NCBI GenBank assembly: GCA_020050835.1 | Contig: JAGVKB010000072.1 | Coordinates: forward strand, 1 to 56,800 | Origin: Candidatus Obscuribacterales bacterium | Lineage (GTDB): Bacteria > Cyanobacteriota > Vampirovibrionia > Obscuribacterales > Obscuribacteraceae | DNA length: 56,800 nt | Reading direction: 5' to 3' | Shown here: in pieces, positions 4,093-39,954 of the stretch | Position numbering within the stretch: the first letter of the stretch is position 1 | How the letters are laid out: every line of letters starts with the position of its first letter | The notes under the pieces: model-generated | The model's input: the letters and a program-made list of their open reading frames with translations, nothing else | What the model was told of the DNA's origin: nothing | Databases searched by the model: none | Position numbers and translations under genes: made by a program

Positions 4093-7000
4093 ATGCAGAC
4101 ACTCCCGAAGGAACCATCTCAAGACAAGGAAAAGGCAGGCAATCAGATGGGTGCAGCGATGCGTGGTGCGGCAGGAAGTGACGAGCCGACCGGCACCAGG
4201 ACGGCTGAGACACGCACTGACAGCCAGTCGATTGCAGGCGATTTGCAAACGGATTTTACCGAGCATTATTGGGAATCCACCCAGGAAACTTTGGTCGGAT
4301 TATATGGCAAGCGCGACCCGAAGACCGGTCAACCAGTTGAGCGCATCAACGACATCATTCACCGGGTCGCACAGGCGGTGGCGATCGCTGAATTGAAGTA
4401 TGTTCTGAGCCCGGAAGAGATCTTGGCGTGCAGCCTGGAGCAGGCGATTGCCCATCCAAGAGTCGCTCAGTGGAAGAAGACTTTCGCTGACAACATCGGC
4501 AATCAACGCTTCTGGGCCAACACCCCTGCCAATATCAACGCCGATCCCCTAGTATCACTTAAGGTCCTTCAATATTGGGCGAACGGCACGCTGGCCAAAT
4601 TGAAAGAAGAGGATATCTGGCTCAAGTCAGAACCGCTTCGACTGGCCTTCATCAATCAGAACACAGAAGCGCTGTCCGCATACGAAATTGAAATGGGACG
4701 GCTGGCCTCCGACTTGCGCGGACGAGGCTGCCTGGCCGCCTGCGGTGTAGCCTACGTAGTAGACAGCCTGGAAGGGATTCAGGAAGCCGCGAAAATTGAG
4801 GCGCTCGCCGCCAAAGCGGCGATGGGCATGGGACTCAACACATCCACGCTCAGACCCTGGTCATCGGTCATCTCAAACGGAGCAGCAGCCTCCGGACCAG
4901 ATCGCTTTTACGAAAAGACGATCGCCAAAGCGGTTGAAGCGGTGGCGCAAGGCGGCCGGCGCGGCGGCGCGCTGATCGAATTGCGCAATTCAGATCACCC
5001 GGACATCTTGTTCTTCATAGACAAGAAGAAGTTGATTCCACCACCGAAGCTTTCTGGCGTCTACAGAGAAGTCCAAGCCGAAATGCGCCAACAATCAGGC
5101 GAAAGCGCGATGGCTTACAAAAAGCGCTTGATCGCTGAATCCGAGCGGCGCTATGGCGAGCTTCATTCACAATATGTAGAACGCCAGAATTATCTCAAGA
5201 ACACCAACGTCACCGTACTGGCCATGCCGGGATTCATGGAGGCAGTCAAAGAGAAGCGATTCTATCCGGCGAGCTTTGCCAAGAAAGTTTGGGACGGCTC
5301 CGTCTACGATCCTCGCAAACCGGTGGTGGACGAGAAAACCGGCATGACTACAGTCAACAAGCTGACCAAAGAGAACATATACCAAGAGTACTCGGTCGAG
5401 ATCGCCAGACACCCGGAGGTGCTCGAGGCTGCCCGCAAGCTCAACAACGCCATTGTCGAGATGACGGACAAGTATGTGCGAGTACGCGGGCATTTCTACG
5501 CGCCGGAAGTCTTCGGTCGGATAGTGGAAGGCATGAAAACATCGGGAGAGCCCGGCATCGCATTCTACGAGACGATTAACGCCGGCAACGCTAATCCCCA
5601 TGCCTACGACTTGAACACCTGCAATCCCTGCGGCGAGCAATTTCTACCAGCCGGGCCCGGGCACGACGGCCGCACCTACATGGGCAATTGCAATCTCTCT
5701 TCCGTGCATGCCGCCCATCGCGACTTCTGGAATCCGGACGGCAGCTTCAATATGTCAGCGATGAAATCAGTCACCAAAGTGCAGCAACGCTTCATGGACA
5801 ATGTCACCGACGTCAGCTGGTATCCGATCCCAGCCCAGAACATGACGGCTCGGTTGGAACGCCGCAACGGCGGCGGCTTCGCCGGCATCGCCGAGTTTCT
5901 CTCGCGCCTGGAGCTGGAATTCGGTGAAGCAGCGTCGCACGCTGCTGTCGAAGAGCTCTATCGCGAATACACACGTGCATCGGTCGAAGCGTCGATCGAG
6001 CTGGCGAAAGAACGCGGGGTCTATCCGCTCTGGGAGGGCAGCCGCTTTCAGAAGAAGGGCTTGCGGGTGCGCAATAGTTGTATGACCAACAACGCTCCGA
6101 CCGGCACCCTGGCGCAGGCGATGCAGACCAGTTGGGGAGTCGATCCGCATAACGGCATCGTCTTTTCGCGCAAGGTGCGTTCGCGTTTCGTCGACTTCGT
6201 TGCGCCCGGCTTCCGCGAATTGATGCAGAAGCACCACGCCTGGCCGGACACAGAAGCCGGTCAAACTGCTCTCATGCAGAAGATTCGGGCCAATCACAAG
6301 TCTTGCCGCGGTCTAGCCGAAGTACCGGCAGCGGTGCAAAAGGCTTTCCCGGTAAGAGTGGAGCTTGAACCGGAGGTCTACATTCGGCATCTGGCAGCTG
6401 TCCACAAAGGCGCAGACGACTACCCGGAAGCTTTCAACTCCGTCTCGAACACTTGCTCGATTCCGCTCGATATGAGCGAGCAGGCGGTTCACGACTCAGC
6501 CATCCTGGCCTGGGAGCTGGGCGTCAAAGACATCACCTTCTATCCAGACGGCAGCCGCTTGAGCCAACCGGTGGAAAAGATCGCTCGCGAAGACTACGCC
6601 GGCGAAGTCGACTTGCTGACTTTGGTCGGCCACCAGGAGCGCCGCAACATCAATATAGACGAAACGAGCGGTCAGACCTACAAAGTCCGAGTCGGCTCAC
6701 CAAGCGGCGGATCGACGCTGCATGTCAGCCTCAATCACGAGTCGGCTCGGCCCGGCGAATTGATTGAAGTCTATGCTCGCATGGGTAAACCAGGCGCGAT
6801 CGAGTCTGGCTTGTTTGAAGCGGTCGGGCGGTTGGCTTCTGCTTTCTTGCAATACGCAGCTGAATTCGGAGAAGACGAGCGAGCGAAAGCTGAGCGATCG
6901 ATCGTGCGCCAACTAGTCAACATTCAATCTGGCTATCCGGCCTTCTTCAAGTTCAGCGATCACGAAAAGCCGCTCGTAATTCAATCACCTTGCGACGGAC

Positions 7001-7239
7001 TGGCAAAAGCGATCCAACAGTATCGCCGCACCTTTGAAGGACAACCAACCAGCAACGGCGATGCAGCCGGCTCGACGAGCTTCACTGCCGCCAAGGTCGA
7101 AGCCGCCGGACAGCAGGCGCCGTTCGACAACGGTTGGTCCGAGTCAATCTCGGCCTGCGGCAAATGCGGCAGCTCGGAATGGCTGAAGATAGATGGTTGC
7201 CTGGTTTGCCAGGGCTGTAGCTACTCCAAGTGCGGCTAG
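4093..7239 (+). CDS. nrdJ: adenosylcobalamin-dependent (class II) ribonucleotide reductase
   Basis: Reduces ribonucleotides to deoxyribonucleotides using a radical generated from adenosylcobalamin, 1048 aa, cytosolic. The active-site loop NPCGEQ (residues 511-516) gives Asn511, radical Cys513 and Glu515. A TSCPD-type domain with GGSTLHVSLNHE lies at about 870-960. The C-terminus has CGKCG, CLVC and further Cys residues near the end, as in the redox/zinc tail of this family. The start has AAAGGAAG upstream. A strong terminator follows. The gene stands alone without nrdR or cobalamin genes. It allows DNA synthesis with or without oxygen. Confidence 0.95.
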   Translation: MQTLPKEPSQDKEKAGNQMGAAMRGAAGSDEPTGTRTAETRTDSQSIAGDLQTDFTEHYWESTQETLVGLYGKRDPKTGQPVERINDIIHRVAQAVAIAELKYVLSPEEILACSLEQAIAHPRVAQWKKTFADNIGNQRFWANTPANINADPLVSLKVLQYWANGTLAKLKEEDIWLKSEPLRLAFINQNTEALSAYEIEMGRLASDLRGRGCLAACGVAYVVDSLEGIQEAAKIEALAAKAAMGMGLNTSTLRPWSSVISNGAAASGPDRFYEKTIAKAVEAVAQGGRRGGALIELRNSDHPDILFFIDKKKLIPPPKLSGVYREVQAEMRQQSGESAMAYKKRLIAESERRYGELHSQYVERQNYLKNTNVTVLAMPGFMEAVKEKRFYPASFAKKVWDGSVYDPRKPVVDEKTGMTTVNKLTKENIYQEYSVEIARHPEVLEAARKLNNAIVEMTDKYVRVRGHFYAPEVFGRIVEGMKTSGEPGIAFYETINAGNANPHAYDLNTCNPCGEQFLPAGPGHDGRTYMGNCNLSSVHAAHRDFWNPDGSFNMSAMKSVTKVQQRFMDNVTDVSWYPIPAQNMTARLERRNGGGFAGIAEFLSRLELEFGEAASHAAVEELYREYTRASVEASIELAKERGVYPLWEGSRFQKKGLRVRNSCMTNNAPTGTLAQAMQTSWGVDPHNGIVFSRKVRSRFVDFVAPGFRELMQKHHAWPDTEAGQTALMQKIRANHKSCRGLAEVPAAVQKAFPVRVELEPEVYIRHLAAVHKGADDYPEAFNSVSNTCSIPLDMSEQAVHDSAILAWELGVKDITFYPDGSRLSQPVEKIAREDYAGEVDLLTLVGHQERRNINIDETSGQTYKVRVGSPSGGSTLHVSLNHESARPGELIEVYARMGKPGAIESGLFEAVGRLASAFLQYAAEFGEDERAKAERSIVRQLVNIQSGYPAFFKFSDHEKPLVIQSPCDGLAKAIQQYRRTFEGQPTSNGDAAGSTSFTAAKVEAAGQQAPFDNGWSESISACGKCGSSEWLKIDGCLVCQGCSYSKCG

Positions 7240-9981: not shown

Positions 9982-10923
9982 ATGGACACCAGCAAGCCGT
10001 ATAAGGATTACTACTATATTCTTGGCGTCCCGCAGGAGGCGACTCCGCAGGAGATTCAGGATGCCTACCACGACCTTTACGAGAAGTACGGGCCGCATGT
10101 CAGTGTGAGCGGCCAAGACCCCGAAATGCTCCTGAAAACCTTCCGGGACATCAGTGAAGCCTATGAAATGTTGATGGATCCTGAAAAGCGCAAGGATTAC
10201 GACAAGAATTGCGCTCCTCATCTGCAGAAGGGAGATCTACGAGCGCTCTGGACCAAATTTTCCGGAGTACAGCAGGCCAGCGGGCAGAATCGAGACGACA
10301 AGAAGCCACGAGCGATCGACACGGAGCTGGATCTGGAGGTGACCCTCAGAGAAGCTGTCAAGGGAAGCAAGAAGCAAGTTTCGTTCGACGAGCCCAAACC
10401 ATGCGAAAGCTGCAACGGATTGAAGCCGGTGCAGCGAATGCAATGCCCGAACTGCCGGGGATTAGGCTATGCAACTTCGGAGCGAACTGAAGAAGTCGAA
10501 CTGCCAGCCGGCATGTTCGATCGGATGGTAATCAGAAAAACAGAGATAGGCAAGTTCGATATGCCTGCCGGCAAACGCGGCGATCTCGTGCTCAGAGTCA
10601 AGATCAAACAACATCCGTTTCTCAGCGTCCTCGGCCGGGATATAACCTGCACAGTGCCGATCACCATTTACGAAGCGGTGCTGGGAGCAGAAGTGGAAGT
10701 ACCGACCGCAACCGGCAAAGTAATCATGAAGGTACAACCACGCACGCAATCAGGCCGAGTCTACCGGCTGAAAGGTCTGGGATTGGCGGGCGCCGACCAG
10801 CTGGTCACCGTCGAAGTTGTGACACCACAGCAGCTCAGCGACGAAGAGGTCGGAATGTACCGCCGGTTAAAGGACTCCTGCAAGGATCCCAATCCCAGAG
10901 AGTCGCTCTACACCAAGCTATAG
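9982..10923 (+). CDS. DnaJ-like protein with J-domain lacking HPD
   Basis: DnaJ/Hsp40-like, 313 aa. An N-terminal J-domain (about residues 8-75) has the usual helices and the C-terminal YEMLMDPEKRKDYD signature, but the loop that should read HPD reads GPH (residues 37-39). A reduced zinc motif follows: CESC (141-144) and CPNC (155-158), two CxxCxG-type repeats instead of four. The rest matches the two beta-sandwich substrate-binding domains of DnaJ. HPD is required to stimulate DnaK ATPase, so this may be a holdase or a J-like protein without canonical Hsp70 coupling (inference). An AGG lies just upstream of the ATG. Confidence 0.85.
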   Translation: MDTSKPYKDYYYILGVPQEATPQEIQDAYHDLYEKYGPHVSVSGQDPEMLLKTFRDISEAYEMLMDPEKRKDYDKNCAPHLQKGDLRALWTKFSGVQQASGQNRDDKKPRAIDTELDLEVTLREAVKGSKKQVSFDEPKPCESCNGLKPVQRMQCPNCRGLGYATSERTEEVELPAGMFDRMVIRKTEIGKFDMPAGKRGDLVLRVKIKQHPFLSVLGRDITCTVPITIYEAVLGAEVEVPTATGKVIMKVQPRTQSGRVYRLKGLGLAGADQLVTVEVVTPQQLSDEEVGMYRRLKDSCKDPNPRESLYTKL

Positions 10924-11625
10924 CTTGCCAACGCTGCTTCGATCAGAGCCTGTTTAGCGGCAGAGATGCATACAAGCTCGAGCTTGTCAACAAGAACACC
11001 GAAAGCACCAGTTCACGCAAAGCTCGAACGGTTAAGGAGTCCAGCCCTTGACTAGCGCCAAGATCACCTTGTTTACATTCCTTTACCAAGCTGCGCTATC
11101 TATCAAGACTCCCGAAAGACGGCTTTCTTGATGCTTTCTAATCTGGCACTTTTGAGCTTTCCTACCCCAAAATTGCCTTAAGTATTCGCGCTTTGCGGGT
11201 CCCCCCCCTGCAGTCAGCTGCCTCGAATCCTGCTGCACCACTGAAAACGTCATCCGATGACATGTACGACATATCGAAAAGGACTAATTGCTTACGCCAG
11301 TCATCTTCATCTAACTTAAAGGCCTCATTACACTTCCTTCGTTCGTCAGGTTTCTAAGTCTCAGCAAGATTCCATTTCCCCAGCAGTCTTCGCCCCCACC
11401 CACACCTTACCGGCGGGTGTTGGTGAGATTTAGCGAAATGTGGCAACCTGCAGGATTGTGGTTGCCCAGTTGCACGACTGCCTCCCTTGCTTCCGACTCC
11501 CTACGCTACCGTGGCCAGCTCTTCGAGCTATCCAGCGGTGAAGCGTTCCTGCATCCACACACCCCTTTTACGGGGTGCTTGAATTCGATGTCTCTGACAA
11601 CGGAGGCATCAAGGAGTCAACTCAA
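10924..11625. other. long leader/gene-free stretch upstream of the phosphoesterase cassette
   Basis: About 700 bases without a convincing gene. It contains a perfect 16-base palindrome ACAAGCTCGAGCTTGT (10972-10987), a run of C (about 11201-11208) and, just before the first cassette gene, a CACCCC/GGGGTG hairpin (11560-11577). The base composition is more pyrimidine-rich than flanking coding DNA. A structured RNA cannot be excluded, but no known family was recognised. Confidence 0.4.
11560..11577 (+). promoter_or_regulatory. leader hairpin upstream of the phosphoesterase gene
   Basis: CACCCC (11560-11565) pairs with GGGGTG (11572-11577) over a TTTTAC loop, 49 bases upstream of the phosphoesterase start. 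It may be a leader structure of the cassette transcript. Role inferred from position only. Confidence 0.35.
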
Positions 11626-12699
11626 ATGAGCACTCGCAAGAGTACTGAAAAGCGGACTCGCAAGAGTCCCGAGAAGAGCTCCGGAAAGAGCGCTCGCAAG
11701 AGCACGAAAACCATCCGCAGTTCTTCCGTTGATGACGCCGCCAAGAAGATCGCCAAAGTGCGGAATCTCGATCTCGAGTCCGTCAAGCAAGCGATCATCG
11801 ACGCGATACGCATCGCCAATCTGGACGGGAGCTACAAGTTCCTGACGTTCGCCGGAATCTTGCCGGTGAGCCTCCCGGATGGCACGAAAATCATCATTCT
11901 CCCGGACATCCATGTTCCGGCTCACAATAAGAAACTGCTCTGGGCAGTCCTGGAGTTCCTCAAGGACTTCCAGCCGCACATCGTGATTTTGATCGGCGAC
12001 GTCGCGGACGTCTTCGCTCTCTCTCGCTGGCCAGCACCGCCTCGCGTGGTGAAGAACATGCAGAAGGAGCTGGACCAGACGCGCCGCCTGGTCGACAAGA
12101 TTATCGAGGTTTCGGGTTGCGTCCACCTGTTCTACATCATGGTCAACCATGAAGACCGAGCCTACCGGTACCTCACGGATCCGGCGTCCGGTCTGGCGAA
12201 CATCGTGGACTTCAACACCCGCGAACCGATCCTCTCCTTCCACGGACTGATGGGGTACAAGCCGGGCGACCCGGTCACCTTCATCTACGACCTCCAGGAG
12301 AAGGGCGGCTACGGCGGTGGCATCCTGGTAAACGATGACCTCGAGTTCCATCACGGCTACATCGTCCGTCCGAACCCCGGCGCCAGCCCCCGGGCCGACG
12401 CAGACCGGACCGGCAAGAGCACCGCTCACGGTCACACCCACCGCGCTGGCATGTCAGCTCGCGAGACGGCTGTCGGCATGGTTCGAGCGTTCGAGCTCGG
12501 ACACCTGGTCGACCCCGAGCACCCGTATATGGGTTACGCCAATCTGCTCAACAACTGGCACCCGGCTGTCGGCGCCGGCCAGATTGTCGGTGGCAAGGTG
12601 CACCTCAAGGTGCTGCCGATCAAGCAGGTTACTACGAACGGCCAGACTCGCTACAAGTTCACCTTCGGCAAGAAGGTGTACACGCAGTCTGATCGCTAA
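11626..12699 (+). CDS. calcineurin-like metallophosphoesterase with basic histone-like N-tail
   Basis: Product of 357 aa. Residues 1-34 are a Lys/Arg/Ser tail built of repeated (T/A)RKS units (MSTRKST, TRKSP, ARKST), like histone H1 tails. The metallophosphoesterase fold follows with all usual metal ligands: D94-x-H96, G124-D125, N174-H175, H242/H243 and GHTH (269-272). It should hydrolyse phosphomono- or diesters with a two-metal centre; the substrate is unknown. The basic tail suggests nucleic acid association (inference). The ATG is chosen because AAGGAG lies about nine bases upstream. It heads a three-gene cassette and has a diverged paralogue two genes downstream. Confidence 0.85.
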   Translation: MSTRKSTEKRTRKSPEKSSGKSARKSTKTIRSSSVDDAAKKIAKVRNLDLESVKQAIIDAIRIANLDGSYKFLTFAGILPVSLPDGTKIIILPDIHVPAHNKKLLWAVLEFLKDFQPHIVILIGDVADVFALSRWPAPPRVVKNMQKELDQTRRLVDKIIEVSGCVHLFYIMVNHEDRAYRYLTDPASGLANIVDFNTREPILSFHGLMGYKPGDPVTFIYDLQEKGGYGGGILVNDDLEFHHGYIVRPNPGASPRADADRTGKSTAHGHTHRAGMSARETAVGMVRAFELGHLVDPEHPYMGYANLLNNWHPAVGAGQIVGGKVHLKVLPIKQVTTNGQTRYKFTFGKKVYTQSDR

Positions 12700-12708
12700 T
12701 CACAACCA

Positions 12709-12751
12709 AAGCGGTGCTGGGGCGGCTTCAGAAGAGCCGTCCCAGCCGCTT
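12709..12751 (+). promoter_or_regulatory. intercistronic hairpin between the phosphoesterase and HAD genes
   Basis: AAGCGGTGCTGGGGCGGCT (12709-12727) pairs with AGCCGTCCCAG (12735-12745) plus CCGCTT (12746-12751), with one small bulge and one G-U pair, over a 7-base loop. No U-tract follows, and the next ribosome binding site lies about 20 bases downstream. It could be a weak attenuator or an mRNA-stabilising element. Confidence 0.6.
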
Positions 12752-12783
12752 GCCAATTCCGAATTTTCGGAAGGAGCACAATG

Positions 12784-13548
12784 ATGAGCACTCGCAAGAG
12801 TAATGCCAGTTCCAACCTGCAGGGCGCGAACTGGCCTCCTGAAAGCGTGCTGGACCCAGGGTTGCACCACAAGTGGTCTCGCGAAGTCATCTTCGACTTC
12901 CACGAGGTCTGCGTGAAGTGGCTCAAGCGGTTCTGCAACTTCTACAACCAGCTGCATGGGACGAACCTCCAGCCGGATGACTTCGATTTCTACAACATGC
13001 AGTTCAAGCCGAGCCGGGACCCTGCCAAGCAGGTCCTGCCGGAGCTGTTCGACAAGACGTTCGTCGTGTTCGCGCGGGCGTCCACCGGTGGCTACGGCGA
13101 CCTCGAACCGCACGATGGGATCAAGGAAGCGATGGAGCAGATCCAGGCCGCCGGCATCAAAATCCGGATCTGGTCCTGGACTCCGGCTGCTGCCGACATC
13201 AAGCCTGACGGCGCTGGGGCCTACAACACCGGCATCGCCCAGGACGTAACGAAGCGCCTGATCCGCCGGCTCCAACTGCCGGTCGACGTAGATCGGGACG
13301 TTGACTTCATGCCGCCGTCGCGCAAGAAGTGGGAGATGGCCGAAGAGCACATCCCGCTGATCGTCGAGGACAACAAGACGACCGCGTCCGACGTGGCCGA
13401 TGCTGCTCACGCCGTGCTTCTCGTCCCCGAGAAGTACAACGAGGGCTTCCAGTGCCGCAACGTCTTGCGGCTTTCCAACCGCAGCGAGCTCGCCGCCACC
13501 GTCATCGACTTCTACCGGAAGCTCGAAGAAGCCGGCGTGCTGCTGTAA
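12784..13548 (+). CDS. HAD-like phosphatase (nucleotidase-like) with altered motif I
   Basis: About 254 aa, HAD superfamily by motif order (numbered from an ATG at 12781): motif I FDFHE with Asp39, motif II WSWT (131-134), Lys182/183 as motif III candidate, and motif IV VEDN (195-198). It resembles 5'(3')-nucleotidase-type HADs. Motif I has His41 where DxD phosphatases carry the second Asp (the general acid), so catalysis may be altered. The first six codons after the second ATG repeat those of the upstream phosphoesterase (MSTRKS). GGAAGGAG lies just upstream; ATG 12781 or 12784 are both possible. Middle gene of the cassette. Confidence 0.7.
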   Translation: MSTRKSNASSNLQGANWPPESVLDPGLHHKWSREVIFDFHEVCVKWLKRFCNFYNQLHGTNLQPDDFDFYNMQFKPSRDPAKQVLPELFDKTFVVFARASTGGYGDLEPHDGIKEAMEQIQAAGIKIRIWSWTPAAADIKPDGAGAYNTGIAQDVTKRLIRRLQLPVDVDRDVDFMPPSRKKWEMAEEHIPLIVEDNKTTASDVADAAHAVLLVPEKYNEGFQCRNVLRLSNRSELAATVIDFYRKLEEAGVLL

Positions 13549-13560
13549 ACGCTTGAACCG

Positions 13561-13611
13561 GCACAATGTCCGGCGCCCGACCAGCTAAACGGTCGGGCGT
13601 CCGGCTTGTGC
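13561..13611 (+). promoter_or_regulatory. intercistronic hairpin between the HAD and pseudo-phosphoesterase genes
   Basis: CGCCCGACC (13574-13582) pairs perfectly with GGTCGGGCG (13591-13599). The stem extends through CCGG/CCGG and GCACAA (13561-13566) with TTGTGC (13606-13611). No U-tract. It has the same placement relative to its upstream gene as the hairpin after the phosphoesterase gene. Confidence 0.65.
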
Positions 13612-13684
13612 TCGCGTCCGTGCGTAGCTGAAATGCTCACACCAATGCGCAGACAAAGCGTTAACAAATGGAGGTCATGAGACC

Positions 13685-14893
13685 ATGTCCAAGTCAACCA
13701 GTTACAAGAGCGTAGTCGTCAAAGAAGACCCGAAGACTTCGCTCGTGGAAGCGGGCATTCACCCGCTCACCCTCGCCAACGGAATGCGCGCGGTCGCCGT
13801 CGGCCACGCCTACTTTCCCAACCACGACCGCAACATCCACAAGATGTTCCTGCAGTACCTGCGGGACACCAAGCCGGCTGTCGTCTTGCTGCTCGGCAGC
13901 ATGATCGACGAAAACGCCTTCAAGGAGCTGACCGAGCAGGAAGACAATTACCTCCACGAGTATGAAGATGCTCCGGAGGTCATAACTGCCCGTCAGTCCG
14001 GTGGATTCGAAGCTCAAGTCTTGTCGCTCGGCAAGGCCTGCGGGGACTACATCAAGTCCTTCGCGGAAGCCAGCGGCGGCACCGTCATCTACATTCCGTC
14101 GGCCACGCACCTGAGCATGGGCAACGAAGTACGGCTGATCGAAGCGATTCAGCGGAAGAAGAAGGTTCTGGATGCCTGGTCCGCCAATCATCCGGACGCC
14201 TCCGAGCTACCGTCGGATCCGAGCGTGCCGCTGCCCAAGAAGCTCGCCCAGCTTCTGCAGATCGACAATCTGCCGAACATCACGGTGAAGCGCTTCGGCG
14301 CGGCCGTGAAGGTCAACAACAAGACGTTGTTCATGATTGGCGACTTCCGCCGCCGCCACGCCGGCGACGCAGCCAAGGTGGAATGGGAACAGCGCGCTCT
14401 CAACATCGTCCGCGGCTTCGACGGCAAAGTGGCCTCCGGCTGGATGACCACGGCGAAGCACACGATGCCCGGGCTCGTGCTCGAGTTTCACGAATTCCAC
14501 GAAGTCGGCTACTTCTGGGATCCAACCCGCATGGGTCACTTCCGGGATTACGATCGCCGCGCTCCCGGCTTCTGCTCGTTCGTCTCCGTCGACGGCGTGC
14601 TCTTCGGCTCGGCCATTCCGATCATTCGCGGCAATGACGGCCGCCGCTCCTTCATCGACGATGTCGATGACTGCGGTTTCAAGGTCTACACCGAAGACTT
14701 CCCGGGCGCTCTGCCGCATGGCGAAGAGATCACCCTGATGCCGCCTCAAGCGGCCGCTCCGGAGTCCACCCCGACTCCGGAGGCACCCGCGCCCACACCT
14801 GCGCCGAAGGTTGCTCGCAAACCGTCCGCCAAGAAACAGGCGACCGGCAAGCGTTCAAGCTCGGACAAGAAGCACGGTGGCAGGCGCTCCTGA
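13685..14893 (+). CDS. metallophosphoesterase paralogue without metal ligands (pseudoenzyme), basic C-tail
   Basis: Product of 402 aa, aligning with the phosphoesterase at 11626-12699 over most of its length. LPDIHVPAHN corresponds to VGHAYFPNHD, LIGDVADV to LLGSMIDE, and near the C-terminus both share a G-x3-DP-x2/x4-MG pattern. Metal ligands are replaced: D-x-H by H41-A-Y43, the Asp of GD by Ser72, the NH pair by SAT, GHTH by AKHT. Hydrolysis by the usual mechanism is therefore unlikely. The last 45 residues are a Pro/Ala linker followed by a Lys/Arg/Ser tail (ARKPSAKKQATGKR). GGAGG lies about 10 bases upstream of the start. A regulatory or binding role, perhaps as partner of the active paralogue, is inference. 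Confidence 0.75.
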   Translation: MSKSTSYKSVVVKEDPKTSLVEAGIHPLTLANGMRAVAVGHAYFPNHDRNIHKMFLQYLRDTKPAVVLLLGSMIDENAFKELTEQEDNYLHEYEDAPEVITARQSGGFEAQVLSLGKACGDYIKSFAEASGGTVIYIPSATHLSMGNEVRLIEAIQRKKKVLDAWSANHPDASELPSDPSVPLPKKLAQLLQIDNLPNITVKRFGAAVKVNNKTLFMIGDFRRRHAGDAAKVEWEQRALNIVRGFDGKVASGWMTTAKHTMPGLVLEFHEFHEVGYFWDPTRMGHFRDYDRRAPGFCSFVSVDGVLFGSAIPIIRGNDGRRSFIDDVDDCGFKVYTEDFPGALPHGEEITLMPPQAAAPESTPTPEAPAPTPAPKVARKPSAKKQATGKRSSSDKKHGGRRS

Positions 14894-14899
14894 AAGCCG

Positions 14900-14931
14900 G
14901 TGAGAGGCGGTGACCGCTTACCGTCTCTCAC
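14900..14931 (+). terminator. hairpin directly after the pseudo-phosphoesterase gene
   Basis: GTGAGAGGCGGT (14900-14911) pairs with ACCGTCTCTCAC (14920-14931) with one G-U pair over an 8-base loop, six bases after the stop codon. No U-tract. It resembles the intercistronic hairpins upstream in the same cassette. Confidence 0.55.
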
Positions 14932-15474
14932 TGTCGACCGGTAAGGGAGTTCCATCTGGAGCTCCTGATACCGGCGACGAGCATTGCGCTCGAGCTACAT
15001 ACGCTGCGGGCTGGGTCTCCGGAGGATTGCGCCGTCATTTACATGATCGCTCAATTCAAAGGAGATCCAGCCCGTTTTTTGTACTTTTTGGCACGTTAGC
15101 CAGGCACCAAATGTGGTTCGCTTCCCCGGCTAAGCTCTGAACGGGGAGATGGAGCCAACTTATGTGAAACGCAACCGATCTAGTGGTGTCAGGCCAGGAA
15201 GAAAGTCGAGAGGGCAATCCAGCATAAACAAGCTTGCCTTCTCGATCTTCTTTCGTTATAGCCACTTCTACTATAGAGCTTCACGGTTACAACGCGAAAC
15301 AGGCATGAATTGCTCCCCAGGCTTCAAGCGATTGACAGATCTCGGCAATCGATCTTTCCACCGGCCGACTTTCCCGGACAACTTGATTGAATGATAGACT
15401 GCGCGTACGTTAAGTCAGTCTGATGATCGGGAACAAGAATATGGCCAGTAAAAAAAGAGATGGAGGATCTCGTC
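14932..15474. other. gene-free stretch after the phosphoesterase cassette
   Basis: No convincing gene. It contains a further inverted repeat (CCGGTA at 14938-14943 with TACCGG near 14970) and a U-tract terminator at 15008-15088. The rest is presumably the promoter region of the next plus-strand gene. Confidence 0.4.
15008..15088 (+). terminator. likely intrinsic terminator of the cassette
   Basis: GGGCTGGGTCTCC (15008-15020) pairs with GGAGATCCAGCCC (15061-15073), 13 pairs with one G-U, followed immediately by GTTTTTTG and a second T-run. The 40-base loop is long for a simple terminator, so this could also be the end of a small RNA. Confidence 0.6.
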
Positions 15475-16116
15475 ATGTCCAGCAGTAAAGATCCAATCCG
15501 GCGCGACTGGTATTTCAAAGAGCCGGGACAGGACCAGGCGCTTGCCCGAGAGCTCGAGGATATAAAGCGCTCGCCAGTATCCTTCGACCGCAATAAGTGG
15601 ATCGATCAGGACAAGGGATTTCTGACAGACCCGAGCGCCGGTGAAGGTCCAAAGCATTTCGAGCTGGCCGAAAAGTTAGCTCAAGCGGAGCCGACACGGC
15701 AGAAAAAACTACCTCCCAGTTTGAAAAAGACACTTTACGATCCGGACAATCTCTCCCTCCTGCTCAACAAGCTTCCAGAAGACTTCGATGTACAACACAT
15801 CACCGGCTCGGAGATCGAAGCGCTGAAGGACAATGCTAAGAAACAGCAGAATCCCGAGGTTCGCCTGCGGCAGGCGGCCGCCAATGTGATCAGGAGCATG
15901 ACAACTACGATGTCAGGCATTTTTCATTCTGCCAAGAAGAACAGGCAATGCGAGCTCTACGGGCACATCCCTGAGCCCGCTGCCAGCTGGCGGGCCGGGC
16001 TCCCGAAATGCATAGACTGCGGAGTATTGATTGAAAGTAGAGCGCAGATCCGGACTCATAGCGCCACCGAGCAACAGCGTGACATCAAACCTTACGACAA
16101 CAAACTCGACTTGTAA
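15475..16116 (+). CDS. hypothetical protein with C-terminal Cys/His (putative zinc) module
   Basis: Product of 213 aa, charged and soluble. The C-terminal part (about residues 109-193) is related to the protein at 54205-54561. Both have ITxxE/D-I/L-x-AL/FK, then R-x-C-x2-YGH, SW and P-x-C-x-DCG. The candidate ligands are Cys159, His164, Cys179 and Cys182 (C-x4-H-x14-C-x2-C). The N-terminal 108 residues are not shared. GGAGG eight bases before the ATG at 15475 supports this start over one five codons upstream. Function unknown; a small zinc-binding domain for protein or nucleic acid contact is inferred. Confidence 0.7.
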   Translation: MSSSKDPIRRDWYFKEPGQDQALARELEDIKRSPVSFDRNKWIDQDKGFLTDPSAGEGPKHFELAEKLAQAEPTRQKKLPPSLKKTLYDPDNLSLLLNKLPEDFDVQHITGSEIEALKDNAKKQQNPEVRLRQAAANVIRSMTTTMSGIFHSAKKNRQCELYGHIPEPAASWRAGLPKCIDCGVLIESRAQIRTHSATEQQRDIKPYDNKLDL

Positions 16117-31850: not shown

Positions 31851-32960
31851 CTAGCGCAAGACCTTCCAATAACTCGCGAAGTACGCTTTGACATCACGAA
31901 TTCGCTCGTCAATCAGATCCGGATTACGATCACCGGTAACCGGCTTAACTATTGGCTCTTCACTTGCATTTGAGCACTTGTTAAGGAGCCGCGGCTTAAC
32001 CAGCTTTCCAGAGTTGAGAACATCAATAGTAGCCACTACAGCCTCTGAGAGCGACTGCGTATTGTAGCCGCCCTCCAGAAAACCGACGACTTTGGCCTTG
32101 GTTAACAAACTCAACTCGAGCAGCTTTTCCGATAAAAGCGCATAACCGGGAGTGGATATCTGCTGCTGCCCAAGCGGATCGAACTGATGAGCGTCGTAGC
32201 CGGCGGACAGCATAATAAGATCGGGGCTGTATTCCAGACAGATCGGTTTGACCAGCTCGTCCCATGCCTTCAAATACCCTCTGTCTCCGGTGCCGGCCGG
32301 TAAGGGGATATTGAGGTTATAACCCTTCCCATCGCCCGCACCATCTTCGGTGTACCAACCGGAATCAGGCGGCCAAAAAGGGTATTGATGAAACGAAACG
32401 AAGAACACCGAGGGATCATCGTAGAACATCCATTGCGTGCCGTTGCCGTGATGCACGTCCCAGTCGATGATGAAAATGCGCTTCATACCAAGCTTTTGTT
32501 GAGCGTAGCGGGCAGCAACCGCGATATTGTTGAAGAGACAAAAACCCATCGGCTTGTCATACAAAGCGTGATGTCCAGGCGGTCGAACCGCCACGAATGA
32601 GCTGGAAACATCTTCAGCCTTGATCGAATCAAGAGCGACCAGTCCGGCTCCGGCAGCGAGTTTCGCCGTCTCGTAACTATCCGAGCTTATAAACGTATCG
32701 GCATCCAGCTGAATAATGCAGGCGCTTTTCAGCGCCTGCTCGCCATCCTGCTTCAGATGCTCTATATAACCTGGATTGTGCACACTGCAAAGCTCATCTT
32801 CCGTGGCTGAGCGCGGATGTACCTGCTTGACCTCATTGATCACTTGACTGCGGTGCAGCGCCTTGTCTATCGCCGCCAGTCGCTGGGGAGATTCAGGATG
32901 CAGCTCCGGGGTATGATGGTCTTGAAATTTGGTGTCGCGAACGAGAACGAGTTTGGACAT
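31851..32960 (-). CDS. histone deacetylase family protein (AcuC/acetylpolyamine amidohydrolase type)
   Basis: Zinc-dependent deacetylase of the arginase/deacetylase fold, 369 aa, cytosolic. Motifs: HPESPQRL near the N-terminus, RPPGHHA, the zinc site DWDVHHGNGTQ, FVSFHQYPFWP, and LSAGYDAHQFDPLG. Bacterial members remove acetyl groups from polyamines, acetyl-lysine proteins or small molecules. The start at 32960 (GGAG upstream) is chosen because the longer frame would overlap the divergent lipoprotein gene. A GNAT acetyltransferase gene lies next downstream; any functional pairing is speculative. Confidence 0.92.
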   Translation of the reverse strand: MSKLVLVRDTKFQDHHTPELHPESPQRLAAIDKALHRSQVINEVKQVHPRSATEDELCSVHNPGYIEHLKQDGEQALKSACIIQLDADTFISSDSYETAKLAAGAGLVALDSIKAEDVSSSFVAVRPPGHHALYDKPMGFCLFNNIAVAARYAQQKLGMKRIFIIDWDVHHGNGTQWMFYDDPSVFFVSFHQYPFWPPDSGWYTEDGAGDGKGYNLNIPLPAGTGDRGYLKAWDELVKPICLEYSPDLIMLSAGYDAHQFDPLGQQQISTPGYALLSEKLLELSLLTKAKVVGFLEGGYNTQSLSEAVVATIDVLNSGKLVKPRLLNKCSNASEEPIVKPVTGDRNPDLIDERIRDVKAYFASYWKVLR

Positions 32961-33147
32961 GTTAGTGCGCTCCGCGTGGCAACCGTAGCCGGATGCCGGC
33001 TCGACTGTAATCGAACTGCGCATCTTAGCTCTTTCCCCAGGCTCTGTCCAGCCGACACCCAGCTTCTCGCCGAAGCACCGGCGCCGATTACAAACTGTGG
33101 CTGCGCCTCTGCCGCTTACCTCCGGATGAATCAAGGAAAGAAATAGC

Positions 33148-34005
33148 ATGAATAAACCGCATAATTCACTGCGATTGTTTCGGCGCTTGCTCTGCCTTGC
33201 CGTCGGTGTATTCTTACTGGCAGCCTGCCCACCGCAGCGCTGCCAGGCCGGATCGACAGCGATGGATAACGTAGATCAAACAGTTGTGGCGCTTAGTAAG
33301 TTCACCCGCGTCGAAAGCGGTCAGGTCGGCGAAGGCGGTGAGAGTCGTGCTTACCGCCTCTACGAACAGCTAAGAGGACGAATCGCCCAACTGCCGATCC
33401 AGGATCTGATGTGGCTTACCGCTAACGGAACCGCAGCCAGCCGCGTTTATTCGGCATTCCTGACCAGAAGCAAGGACAGTAAGGCGGGGATTCATTCCGT
33501 GCTCGAGTTGCTGGACGACGACTCACCGGTTGAGTACCAGACCGGATGTGAAGTACTCTCCTCTTCCGTCAGCGAGATTGGCAGCGCCTATACAGCGACC
33601 GGCGCATTTCTGGACTTCCAGGACAAACCGGATTTAAAACCAATTTACCTGGAAGAACTCAGGCAAGCAGCACAATTTGCCGACCAGGTAGGCGGCGAAA
33701 GCGGCAGACAAGCCGAATTCCTCATCTTTCGGGCCGCTTTCAAGAACGCCCACTCGCTCAAAGTAAACGATCTCAAATCGTTGCAGAAGAACGCTACTGC
33801 AGCCGGACGTCTTTACGCCGCGATGCTGCTTGAATCATCAGGAAAGCTCAGCCGCGCGCAAGCGTTTGCACCATTGCTAAACGACAACGCTTCCGTTTTA
33901 TATGTGAGCGGCTGTAAGGCGGCATCCTACAGGGTCTCGGCCGTGGCCAGGCAGTTTAAGCAAACCGGCCGCTTCCACAACTTTGCTCTATCGTCGGTAC
34001 AGTAA
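33148..34005 (+). CDS. lipoprotein with two internal repeats
   Basis: Product of 285 aa. A signal peptide ends in a lipobox LLAAC (Cys27). The mature protein contains two related segments, about residues 87-157 and 209-279. They share the pattern (S/G)R(V/L)Y(S/A)A, LL-x-D, a GC pair (Cys134 and Cys256), VS-x(2-4)-A/R and TG-x-F-x2-F. The segment is not a family I recognise. GGAAAG lies upstream of the ATG. Divergent from the deacetylase gene, with 187 bases between starts. An envelope protein of unknown function. Confidence 0.75.
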   Translation: MNKPHNSLRLFRRLLCLAVGVFLLAACPPQRCQAGSTAMDNVDQTVVALSKFTRVESGQVGEGGESRAYRLYEQLRGRIAQLPIQDLMWLTANGTAASRVYSAFLTRSKDSKAGIHSVLELLDDDSPVEYQTGCEVLSSSVSEIGSAYTATGAFLDFQDKPDLKPIYLEELRQAAQFADQVGGESGRQAEFLIFRAAFKNAHSLKVNDLKSLQKNATAAGRLYAAMLLESSGKLSRAQAFAPLLNDNASVLYVSGCKAASYRVSAVARQFKQTGRFHNFALSSVQ

Positions 34006-38952: not shown

Positions 38953-39954
38953 ATGAACCGTAACTTGAGCGGCTTCCTGCCGCCTTTCTTTCTGGTCGAG
39001 CTTGCTCGACGCAACCCGACCAACACCAGCTATCTGGAGACTCTGGTCCAAACGCAGAAGCTGTGGCTAAAAGGTGAACAAACCTTCCTGCCCTTCGGCA
39101 AGGGCAAGTCGGACCGTTTCAGCCATGACGCCGAAAACAAGGAGGACCTGCCTGGAAAGCTGGTCCGTGGCGAGAATGACCCGGCCGCGAAGGACGAGCT
39201 GATCAACCGCGCGCACCAGTTCGCCCAGGAGATCCGCGACTTCTACAAGACCCACTTCAACCGCAACGGTCCGGACGGCAACGGCGATAACATCGTCCAG
39301 ACCATGCACTACGGACTGAAGTACAACAACGCCTACTTCTCCGTCCAGATGGTCTATGGCGACGGCGACGGCGACATCTTCATGACCTTCATGATCCGCG
39401 ACGTCGCCGGTCACGAGATCGGGCACTGGTTCGTCTCCACCACCTGCAAGCTGGTGTACTGGAAGGAATCCGGTGCACTCAACGAGCACATGGCCGACGT
39501 GCTCGGCGTCTGCCTCAACCAGTGGGTGGCAAAGCAGACCGTCGAGCAGGCCGATTGGCTGGTCGGCGCCGGACTGTTCAACCCGAAGTTGACCGGCTGC
39601 CGCGCTCTGCGCGACATGGTCAACCCCGGCACCGCCTACAACCACCCGCGCCTCGGGAAGGATCCCCAACCCGCCCATATGCGCGACTTCGTCGACACCT
39701 GGAGCGACAACGGTGGAGTCCACTACAACAGTGGCATCCCCAACCGGGCCTTCGCTCTGTTCGCCAAGTCGCTCGGCGGATACGTCTGGGAAAAGGCCCT
39801 GCAGATCTGGTTCGGCACCGCTCTGCGCGCTTCCAGCAACTGCACGTTTCAGGAATGGGCTGACCTGACCGTCAAGGTGGCGCAAGCCAACTACCCCGAG
39901 ACGGTCGACAAGCTCAAGACCGCCTGGAGCACGGTCGGCATCACGGTCAAGTAA
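38953..39954 (+). CDS. protealysin-like M4 metallopeptidase
   Basis: Thermolysin-family zinc endopeptidase, 333 aa. There is no signal peptide. A short N-terminal propeptide with LPPFFLVELARR (residues 9-20) matches the PPxxL element of protealysin-type peptidases, in contrast to the long propeptide of thermolysin. Zinc site: H154-EIG-H158 and Glu178 in GALNEHMAD; the substrate-site His lies in VHYNSGIPNRAF. HEIGH instead of HELTH is a mild variation. It is probably intracellular. Protealysin-type genes often have an emfourin inhibitor gene beside them; none is seen here. No strong ribosome binding site precedes the ATG. Codon third positions are strongly C/G-biased. Confidence 0.92.
   Translation: MNRNLSGFLPPFFLVELARRNPTNTSYLETLVQTQKLWLKGEQTFLPFGKGKSDRFSHDAENKEDLPGKLVRGENDPAAKDELINRAHQFAQEIRDFYKTHFNRNGPDGNGDNIVQTMHYGLKYNNAYFSVQMVYGDGDGDIFMTFMIRDVAGHEIGHWFVSTTCKLVYWKESGALNEHMADVLGVCLNQWVAKQTVEQADWLVGAGLFNPKLTGCRALRDMVNPGTAYNHPRLGKDPQPAHMRDFVDTWSDNGGVHYNSGIPNRAFALFAKSLGGYVWEKALQIWFGTALRASSNCTFQEWADLTVKVAQANYPETVDKLKTAWSTVGITVK

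Follow-up and report, generated by a model that had tools for sequence, protein, structure and literature searches.

Three consecutive genes in the genome of a Candidatus Obscuribacterales bacterium encode a calcineurin-like metallophosphoesterase (PE), a HAD phosphatase and a diverged PE paralogue that has lost its metal ligands (pseudo-PE). The window, the whole stretch of DNA analysed here, is one complete contig of 56.8 kb from a 7.0 Mb draft genome; its family, the Obscuribacteraceae, comprises non-photosynthetic relatives of the cyanobacteria. What we show is the gene content of the locus, the motifs kept and lost, the predicted folds, a folded leader and codon bias, together with the co-inheritance of the three genes and their swapping at one site. 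Our tentative reading, to which we give somewhat less than an even chance, is that the trio is a lineage-restricted operon, exchanged as a unit, whose products would act on DNA or deoxynucleotides; we infer the substrate, a complex of PE with pseudo-PE, the order of reactions and high expression. The trio occupies positions 11626-14893:

11626-12699, plus strand: PE, 357 residues, calcineurin-like (binuclear) metallophosphoesterase with every metal-ligand motif kept.
12784-13548, plus strand: HAD phosphatase, 254 residues, 5'(3')-deoxyribonucleotidase-like fold; alternative ATG at 12781.
13685-14893, plus strand: pseudo-PE, 402 residues, diverged PE paralogue with the ligands lost and a calcineurin-like fold retained.

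The trio is conserved in order and restricted to one lineage

The initial annotation, made from the letters of the DNA, had called three consecutive plus-strand genes, namely a complete calcineurin-type phosphoesterase, a HAD-like phosphatase and a diverged copy of the phosphoesterase, and had proposed looking for the same order in related genomes. All of this was borne out. In the material read (20 retrieved regions and further, shorter loci), 22 loci from 20 genomes carry the trio without interruption, on one strand and in fixed order; where measured, the gaps are 26-116 bases between PE and HAD and 2-152 bases between HAD and pseudo-PE. PE is present in 27 of the 50 family genomes and pseudo-PE in about as many; the relatives with the same genes are Candidatus Obscuribacterales and include Ca. 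Obscuribacter phosphatis.

A class-wide search with a pseudo-PE profile (146 genomes) brought in one further genome, G026 of the sister family, which was added via its PE. Its contig carries a ribonucleotide reductase (RNR) gene followed by PE, as at most family loci, plus a 25-residue HAD match near the contig end, taken as the beginning of the HAD gene. Outside the family, pseudo-PE was not found in the class (146 genomes) or phylum samples, and the window's own genome was the sole match among the 386 genomes of the phylum sample. Viral contigs contained PE relatives, but no pseudo-PE, HAD or trio was found in them; we therefore reject the trio as phage cargo, since only the PE relatives are common in phages. 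A limited literature search found no description of the operon.

PE has a complete binuclear site and relatives in phages

PE contains the five metallophosphoesterase motifs (DxH, GDxxD, GNH(E/D), H and GHxH) and with them the entire binuclear ligand set (D94, H96, D125, N174, H175, H243, H270 and H272). These ligands are invariant across 20 orthologues apart from L074, the most distant, which has H96Q and D128E. The match to Pfam Metallophos, at 20.7 bits, lies slightly under the cut-off of 21.5; PE is, however, a member of the phage family phrog_221 (E 4.8e-36, 256 residues aligned). It shares its core and motifs with the cluster A mycobacteriophage metallophosphoesterases A10ZJ24 Gp48 and Bxb1 Gp47 at 25-29% identity, but carries an extra N-terminal region of ∼ 75-80 residues and, unlike the phage enzymes, is accompanied by a pseudo-paralogue and a HAD partner.

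These cluster A enzymes are the best-studied relatives of PE. Gp48, a studied phrog_221 member, acts as a phosphodiesterase and can degrade DNA in vitro; it is toxic to the host, and its activity depends on the metal ligands D10, D41 and H175 (PMC12287305). In the same source Bxb1 Gp47 is reported to be without phosphoesterase activity and to serve as a recombination directionality factor. The catalytic positions of Gp48 are conserved in PE, which is predicted to be active. With such low identity and a family that includes the inactive Gp47, the PE substrate cannot be deduced from the phages. No integrase is annotated among the trio neighbours, although the rest of the genome was not searched for a cognate one. 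A class II RNR, thymidylate synthase and primase are encoded within a few genes of the PE relative in the actinophages Trixie and RER2. As a general phage rule such RNR linkage is rejected, as an RNR lies near a PE-family gene in just 1 of 80 viral loci.

Pseudo-PE keeps the fold but not the ligands

Pseudo-PE lacks the metal-binding motifs needed for catalysis, with substitutions at the positions of the PE ligands D94 (H/N), D125 (S/H/G), N174 (T/S), H270 (F/V) and H272 (G). It matches no Pfam family. Its model (predicted local distance difference test score, pLDDT, 84) nevertheless matches LpxH and PP5 in Foldseek (E 9e-6, probability 1.00), indicating a calcineurin-like fold, and similarity to PE is detectable both by direct comparison (31% over 59 residues, E 2.7e-4) and with a pseudo-PE profile (E 8e-11). 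The same profile also matches phage metallophosphoesterases, with E values down to 1e-8. A segment just N-terminal to the domain (AGI-PL-LPDGT-(I/V)V) is common to PE and pseudo-PE and absent from the actinophage enzymes, which suggests that the pair arose by duplication within the lineage. Like known pseudophosphatases and dead metallophosphoesterase domains, pseudo-PE combines a calcineurin-like fold with lost metal ligands; unlike other dead domains of this type, it stands alone and is operonic with its active parent type, for which it would act as a partner. In G021 (L071:10083-11618) the pseudo-PE position is taken by a 511-residue version with a Cys/His-rich end (NNEHCHNCEE).

The HAD phosphatase resembles 5'(3')-deoxyribonucleotidases

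The structural matches of the HAD model (pLDDT 86) are HAD hydrolases; against the Staphylococcus epidermidis deoxyribonucleotidase and the human and mouse cdN enzymes (3bwv, 2i7d, 2jao) the template modelling (TM) score, normalized by target, is 0.70-0.76. The catalytic residues are present (nucleophile D38, T/S131, K181 and D196), and the nucleophile (kept in 21/21 sequences), the motif III Lys and the motif IV Asp are invariant. The protein thus shares the fold and HAD motifs I-IV with the 5'(3')-deoxyribonucleotidases (NT5C/PF06941; human cdN and mdN), but scores below the Pfam cut-off (19.8 against 24.8 bits) and does not have their DxD motif I. The acid/base position two residues after the nucleophile is His (DxH) in 17 of the 21 sequences and Asp in four, the latter being the diverged members L070, L072 and L074 plus G048 (L073). 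The proposed composition of two phosphatase folds and one pseudoenzyme stands, with two real hydrolase families and a pseudo-PE that has lost its ligands.

The basic tails are variable

Two tails were considered:

11626-11727, plus strand: N-terminal Arg/Lys/Ser tail of PE, 34 residues, encoded by a short imperfect tandem repeat.
14783-14890, plus strand: basic C-terminal tail of pseudo-PE, predicted to be disordered.

The (T/A)RKS tail is N-terminal in PE: MSTRKSTEKRTRKSPEKSSGKSARKSTKTIRSSS. It is found in this genome only and is absent from all orthologues. The Lys/Arg/Ser-rich tail of pseudo-PE (pLDDT < 50) is more widespread. In complete pseudo-PEs of the main clade the net charge over the final 20 residues is +3 to +10, except in L055 (-9) and L056 (-7), and the pseudo-PEs of the diverged clade have no tail. 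Many orthologue tails are rich in Lys, Ala and Pro, and in most orthologues the tail is basic but unrelated in sequence; the tail is common but dispensable. The initial annotation had pointed to basic tails on two proteins as a sign of nucleic-acid binding. Both tails exist here, but among close homologues that of PE has no counterpart at all, and that of pseudo-PE is basic in most and acidic in L055 and L056. We therefore reject the tails as key evidence for nucleic acids.

A second proposed link fares similarly. The coding starts of PE and HAD are indeed identical over exactly 19 bases (ATGAGCACTCGCAAGAGTA). However, this start is included in the short imperfect DNA repeat (∼ 12/24 bases, family D1) that encodes the PE tail, and so is not independent evidence.

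The trio appears to be exchanged as a unit at a fixed locus

At most loci a class II RNR gene is followed by a DnaJ/CbpA-like gene and then by the trio. In the window these neighbours are:

4093-7239, plus strand: divergent adenosylcobalamin-type (class II) RNR, an extra copy; the looser neighbour.
9982-10923, plus strand: DnaJ/CbpA-like co-chaperone with a reduced zinc-finger region; a neighbour tracking trio presence.

In the DnaJ-like protein the usual zinc-finger region is incomplete (weak DnaJ_CXXCXGXG match). Its orthologue and the trio occur together in 23 genomes, the trio alone in 2, DnaJ alone in 2 and neither in 12 (Fisher p 2e-6); for RNR and the trio the corresponding numbers are 25, 2, 8 and 15, that is 25 of 27 PE-bearing genomes versus 8 of 23 others (p 2e-5), both values being inflated by shared ancestry and incomplete assemblies. 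An RNR occurs without the trio in G041:C56, G042:C450, G043:C173, G044:C68 and G015:C401; several of these RNR-only contigs stop right after the RNR gene, so the absence may be an assembly effect. Two further trios, both diverged, lie at G007:C531 and G054:C137, away from RNR and this DnaJ gene.

The tree distances of the three trio proteins correlate closely with one another (Spearman 0.89-0.95), as do those of RNR and DnaJ (0.96), whereas correlations between the trio and RNR/DnaJ are only 0.26-0.57. Part of this contrast is due to diverged trios, since the between-block values rise to 0.44-0.75 when G017, G021 and the second copies are left out. G017 is the nearest relative of this genome by RNR (80%) and DnaJ (75%), but at the same site its PE and pseudo-PE are only 31% and 26% identical to those of this genome, and its trio groups with the second copy of G007. 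Because the three proteins share a history that differs from that of RNR and DnaJ, the simplest reading of these comparisons is that the whole trio has been replaced as a unit at a fixed locus.

Codon bias and probable high expression

GC content at third codon positions (GC3) is higher in the trio than in DnaJ and RNR at every comparable locus, at ∼ 0.70-0.89 versus 0.45-0.70 at most loci and 0.36-0.42 versus 0.25 at the low-GC host locus L065 (41% GC). A foreign base composition is an unlikely cause, as the shift over RNR and DnaJ is seen in every host examined, L065 included. Across three genomes the trio has an effective codon number of 33-38, compared with 49-51 in ribosomal proteins. The codon adaptation index (CAI) of the trio, with ribosomal proteins as reference, lies at the 94th-95th percentile here and is middling in G006, and the codon choices partly differ from the ribosomal ones; for these two reasons high expression of the trio is not proved, but from codon use we consider it likely.

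The trio is not alone in this bias: M4 and S41 peptidase genes and a patatin gene share the extreme GC3. The M4 (thermolysin-like) metallopeptidase gene at 38953-39954 shows the strongest codon bias seen anywhere in the window (GC3 0.86), and its product has no obvious signal peptide. In G055 (L246:10869-13952) an S41 peptidase gene lies between two patatin-like genes; at least the S41 and second patatin genes have extreme codon bias, neither product has a clear signal peptide, and the three could be a co-expressed hydrolase set.

A folded leader precedes PE

A non-coding gap (10924-11625 in the window) separates the DnaJ-like gene from PE in every locus, on the same strand and ∼ 400-1350 bases long, and the folded leader lies at its 3' end. 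The non-coding elements of the trio are:

11476-11625, plus strand: strongly folded 5' leader of PE.
12709-12751, plus strand: strong hairpin without a T run in the PE-HAD gap.
13560-13612, plus strand: strong hairpin without a T run in the HAD-pseudo-PE gap.
14898-14933, plus strand: 16-bp hairpin without a T run, directly 3' of pseudo-PE.

The 150 nt upstream of PE are predicted to fold more stably than shuffled sequences, with a median z of -3.4 over 21 loci, against -0.35 for DnaJ and -0.65 for RNR. The fold is present at most main-clade loci and absent in the diverged clade. It is notable but not unique, since 24 of 129 background genes of these genomes (median z -0.98; some trio genes included) score below -3. 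In this genome a predicted pairing of GACUCC (11495-11500) with GGAGUC (11613-11618) would cover the Shine-Dalgarno sequence. A 23-nt core of the leader is almost invariant within one clade. In six genomes it occurs once per genome and was found neither elsewhere in them nor on viral contigs; it precedes PE in the five loci read. Covariation is too weak to prove the structure. A known riboswitch or non-coding RNA is rejected, as no Rfam covariance model matched the leader in the window or in 16 homologous loci. Together with a codon bias stronger than that of ribosomal proteins, the leader suggests that the trio proteins are important to the cell at some stage.

Proposed function and alternatives

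In the operon that we propose, PE would be an active metal-dependent phosphodiesterase or monoesterase of the phage cluster A type, cutting DNA, oligonucleotides or a nucleotide. Pseudo-PE would be a dead partner that either binds substrate or restrains and positions PE, and HAD would strip the phosphate from the released (deoxy)nucleoside monophosphates. The location beside a class II RNR could link the operon to deoxynucleotide supply. A more specific form of this model, which we hold to be doubtful, is a new type of mobile operon for defence or digestion of foreign DNA. In it a DNase-like PE of phage type, with its dead paralogue as controlling or targeting partner, and a deoxyribonucleotidase of the His variant would together degrade DNA to nucleosides, and a folded leader would govern the translation of these abundantly made proteins.

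The initial annotation had suggested a dedicated nucleic acid or nucleotide system. Contiguity and co-inheritance support a dedicated common system well, and phrog_221 membership, the deoxyribonucleotidase-like HAD and the upstream RNR make a nucleic-acid or nucleotide role plausible, but the argument from the tails is weak. Its narrower proposal of nucleic acid end processing gained no support; no kinase or ligase partner is seen. HAD or metallophosphoesterase phosphatases do work at nucleic-acid ends in Pnkp-type end-healing enzymes; unlike these, the cassette has no visible kinase, ligase or RtcB-like gene.

Several observations weigh against an operon acting on DNA or deoxynucleotides. In G021, G004 and G063 the RNR and the trio lie on different contigs and in G012 they are ∼ 13 kb apart, and the linkage is rare among viral loci. 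PE is distant from the phage enzymes, in a family that also holds Bxb1 Gp47. The His that replaces the acid/base Asp in most HAD sequences leaves HAD activity unproven. Finally, the high expression suggested by codon bias would be odd for a free DNase.

An alternative that we regard as unlikely is housekeeping of the deoxynucleotide pool, in which PE and HAD dephosphorylate surplus (deoxy)nucleoside monophosphates and so brake the class II RNR, with a regulatory pseudo-PE and no DNA cleavage. It would explain why the RNR accompanies most PE-bearing genomes, why HAD has a deoxyribonucleotidase-like fold and why the Trixie and RER2 relatives of PE lie near class II RNR and thymidylate synthase. 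It accords poorly with the differing histories of trio and RNR, their unlinked positions in G021, G004 and G063, the copies in G007 and G054 away from any RNR, and the genomes without the locus, which have other RNRs.

Defence or conflict between elements appears rather improbable. A nuclease/nucleotidase that restricts phage DNA, with pseudo-PE and the folded leader as its restraints, would fit the patchy distribution (27/50), the phage-type nuclease family of PE and the apparent replacement of whole trios at a fixed locus (the G017 trio is 25-31% identical). However, no trio component credibly matched a described defence protein family in PADLOC, the neighbours are housekeeping genes, and the strong codon adaptation suggests steady, abundant expression.

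Abundant cytosolic handling of phosphate (polyphosphate or another phosphoester), with the basic tail tethering pseudo-PE to a polyanion, is in our view very unlikely. There is a precedent in AlgP, whose histone H1-like tail is thought to hold it at polyphosphate granules (PMC9239181). Relatives of this genome include Ca. Obscuribacter phosphatis, many orthologues have Lys/Ala/Pro-rich tails, and the codon bias exceeds that of ribosomal proteins. Yet L055 and L056 have an acidic tail and the diverged clade has none, and the phage and deoxyribonucleotidase relatives point elsewhere. That three ordinary metabolic genes, each of a common fold, are adjacent by chance is hardly credible, since the same genes recur in fixed order elsewhere with matched trees, a co-inheritance that already contradicts it.

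If the proposed operon is real, bacteria have taken over a phosphoesterase of phage replication regions, divided it into two paralogues, one active and one dead, and paired these with a dedicated nucleotidase, which would make it a clear case for how pseudoenzymes steer a nuclease-like enzyme. An uncultured lineage would also gain a defined, repeatedly exchanged enzyme set with testable activities.

Other features of the contig

Downstream of the trio, an orphan 218-residue open reading frame (15460-16116) contains CxxC-like pairs; it matches no family and has no relative at the other loci. A histone-deacetylase-family (AcuC-like) gene at 31851-33149 on the same contig is probably unrelated to the basic tails.

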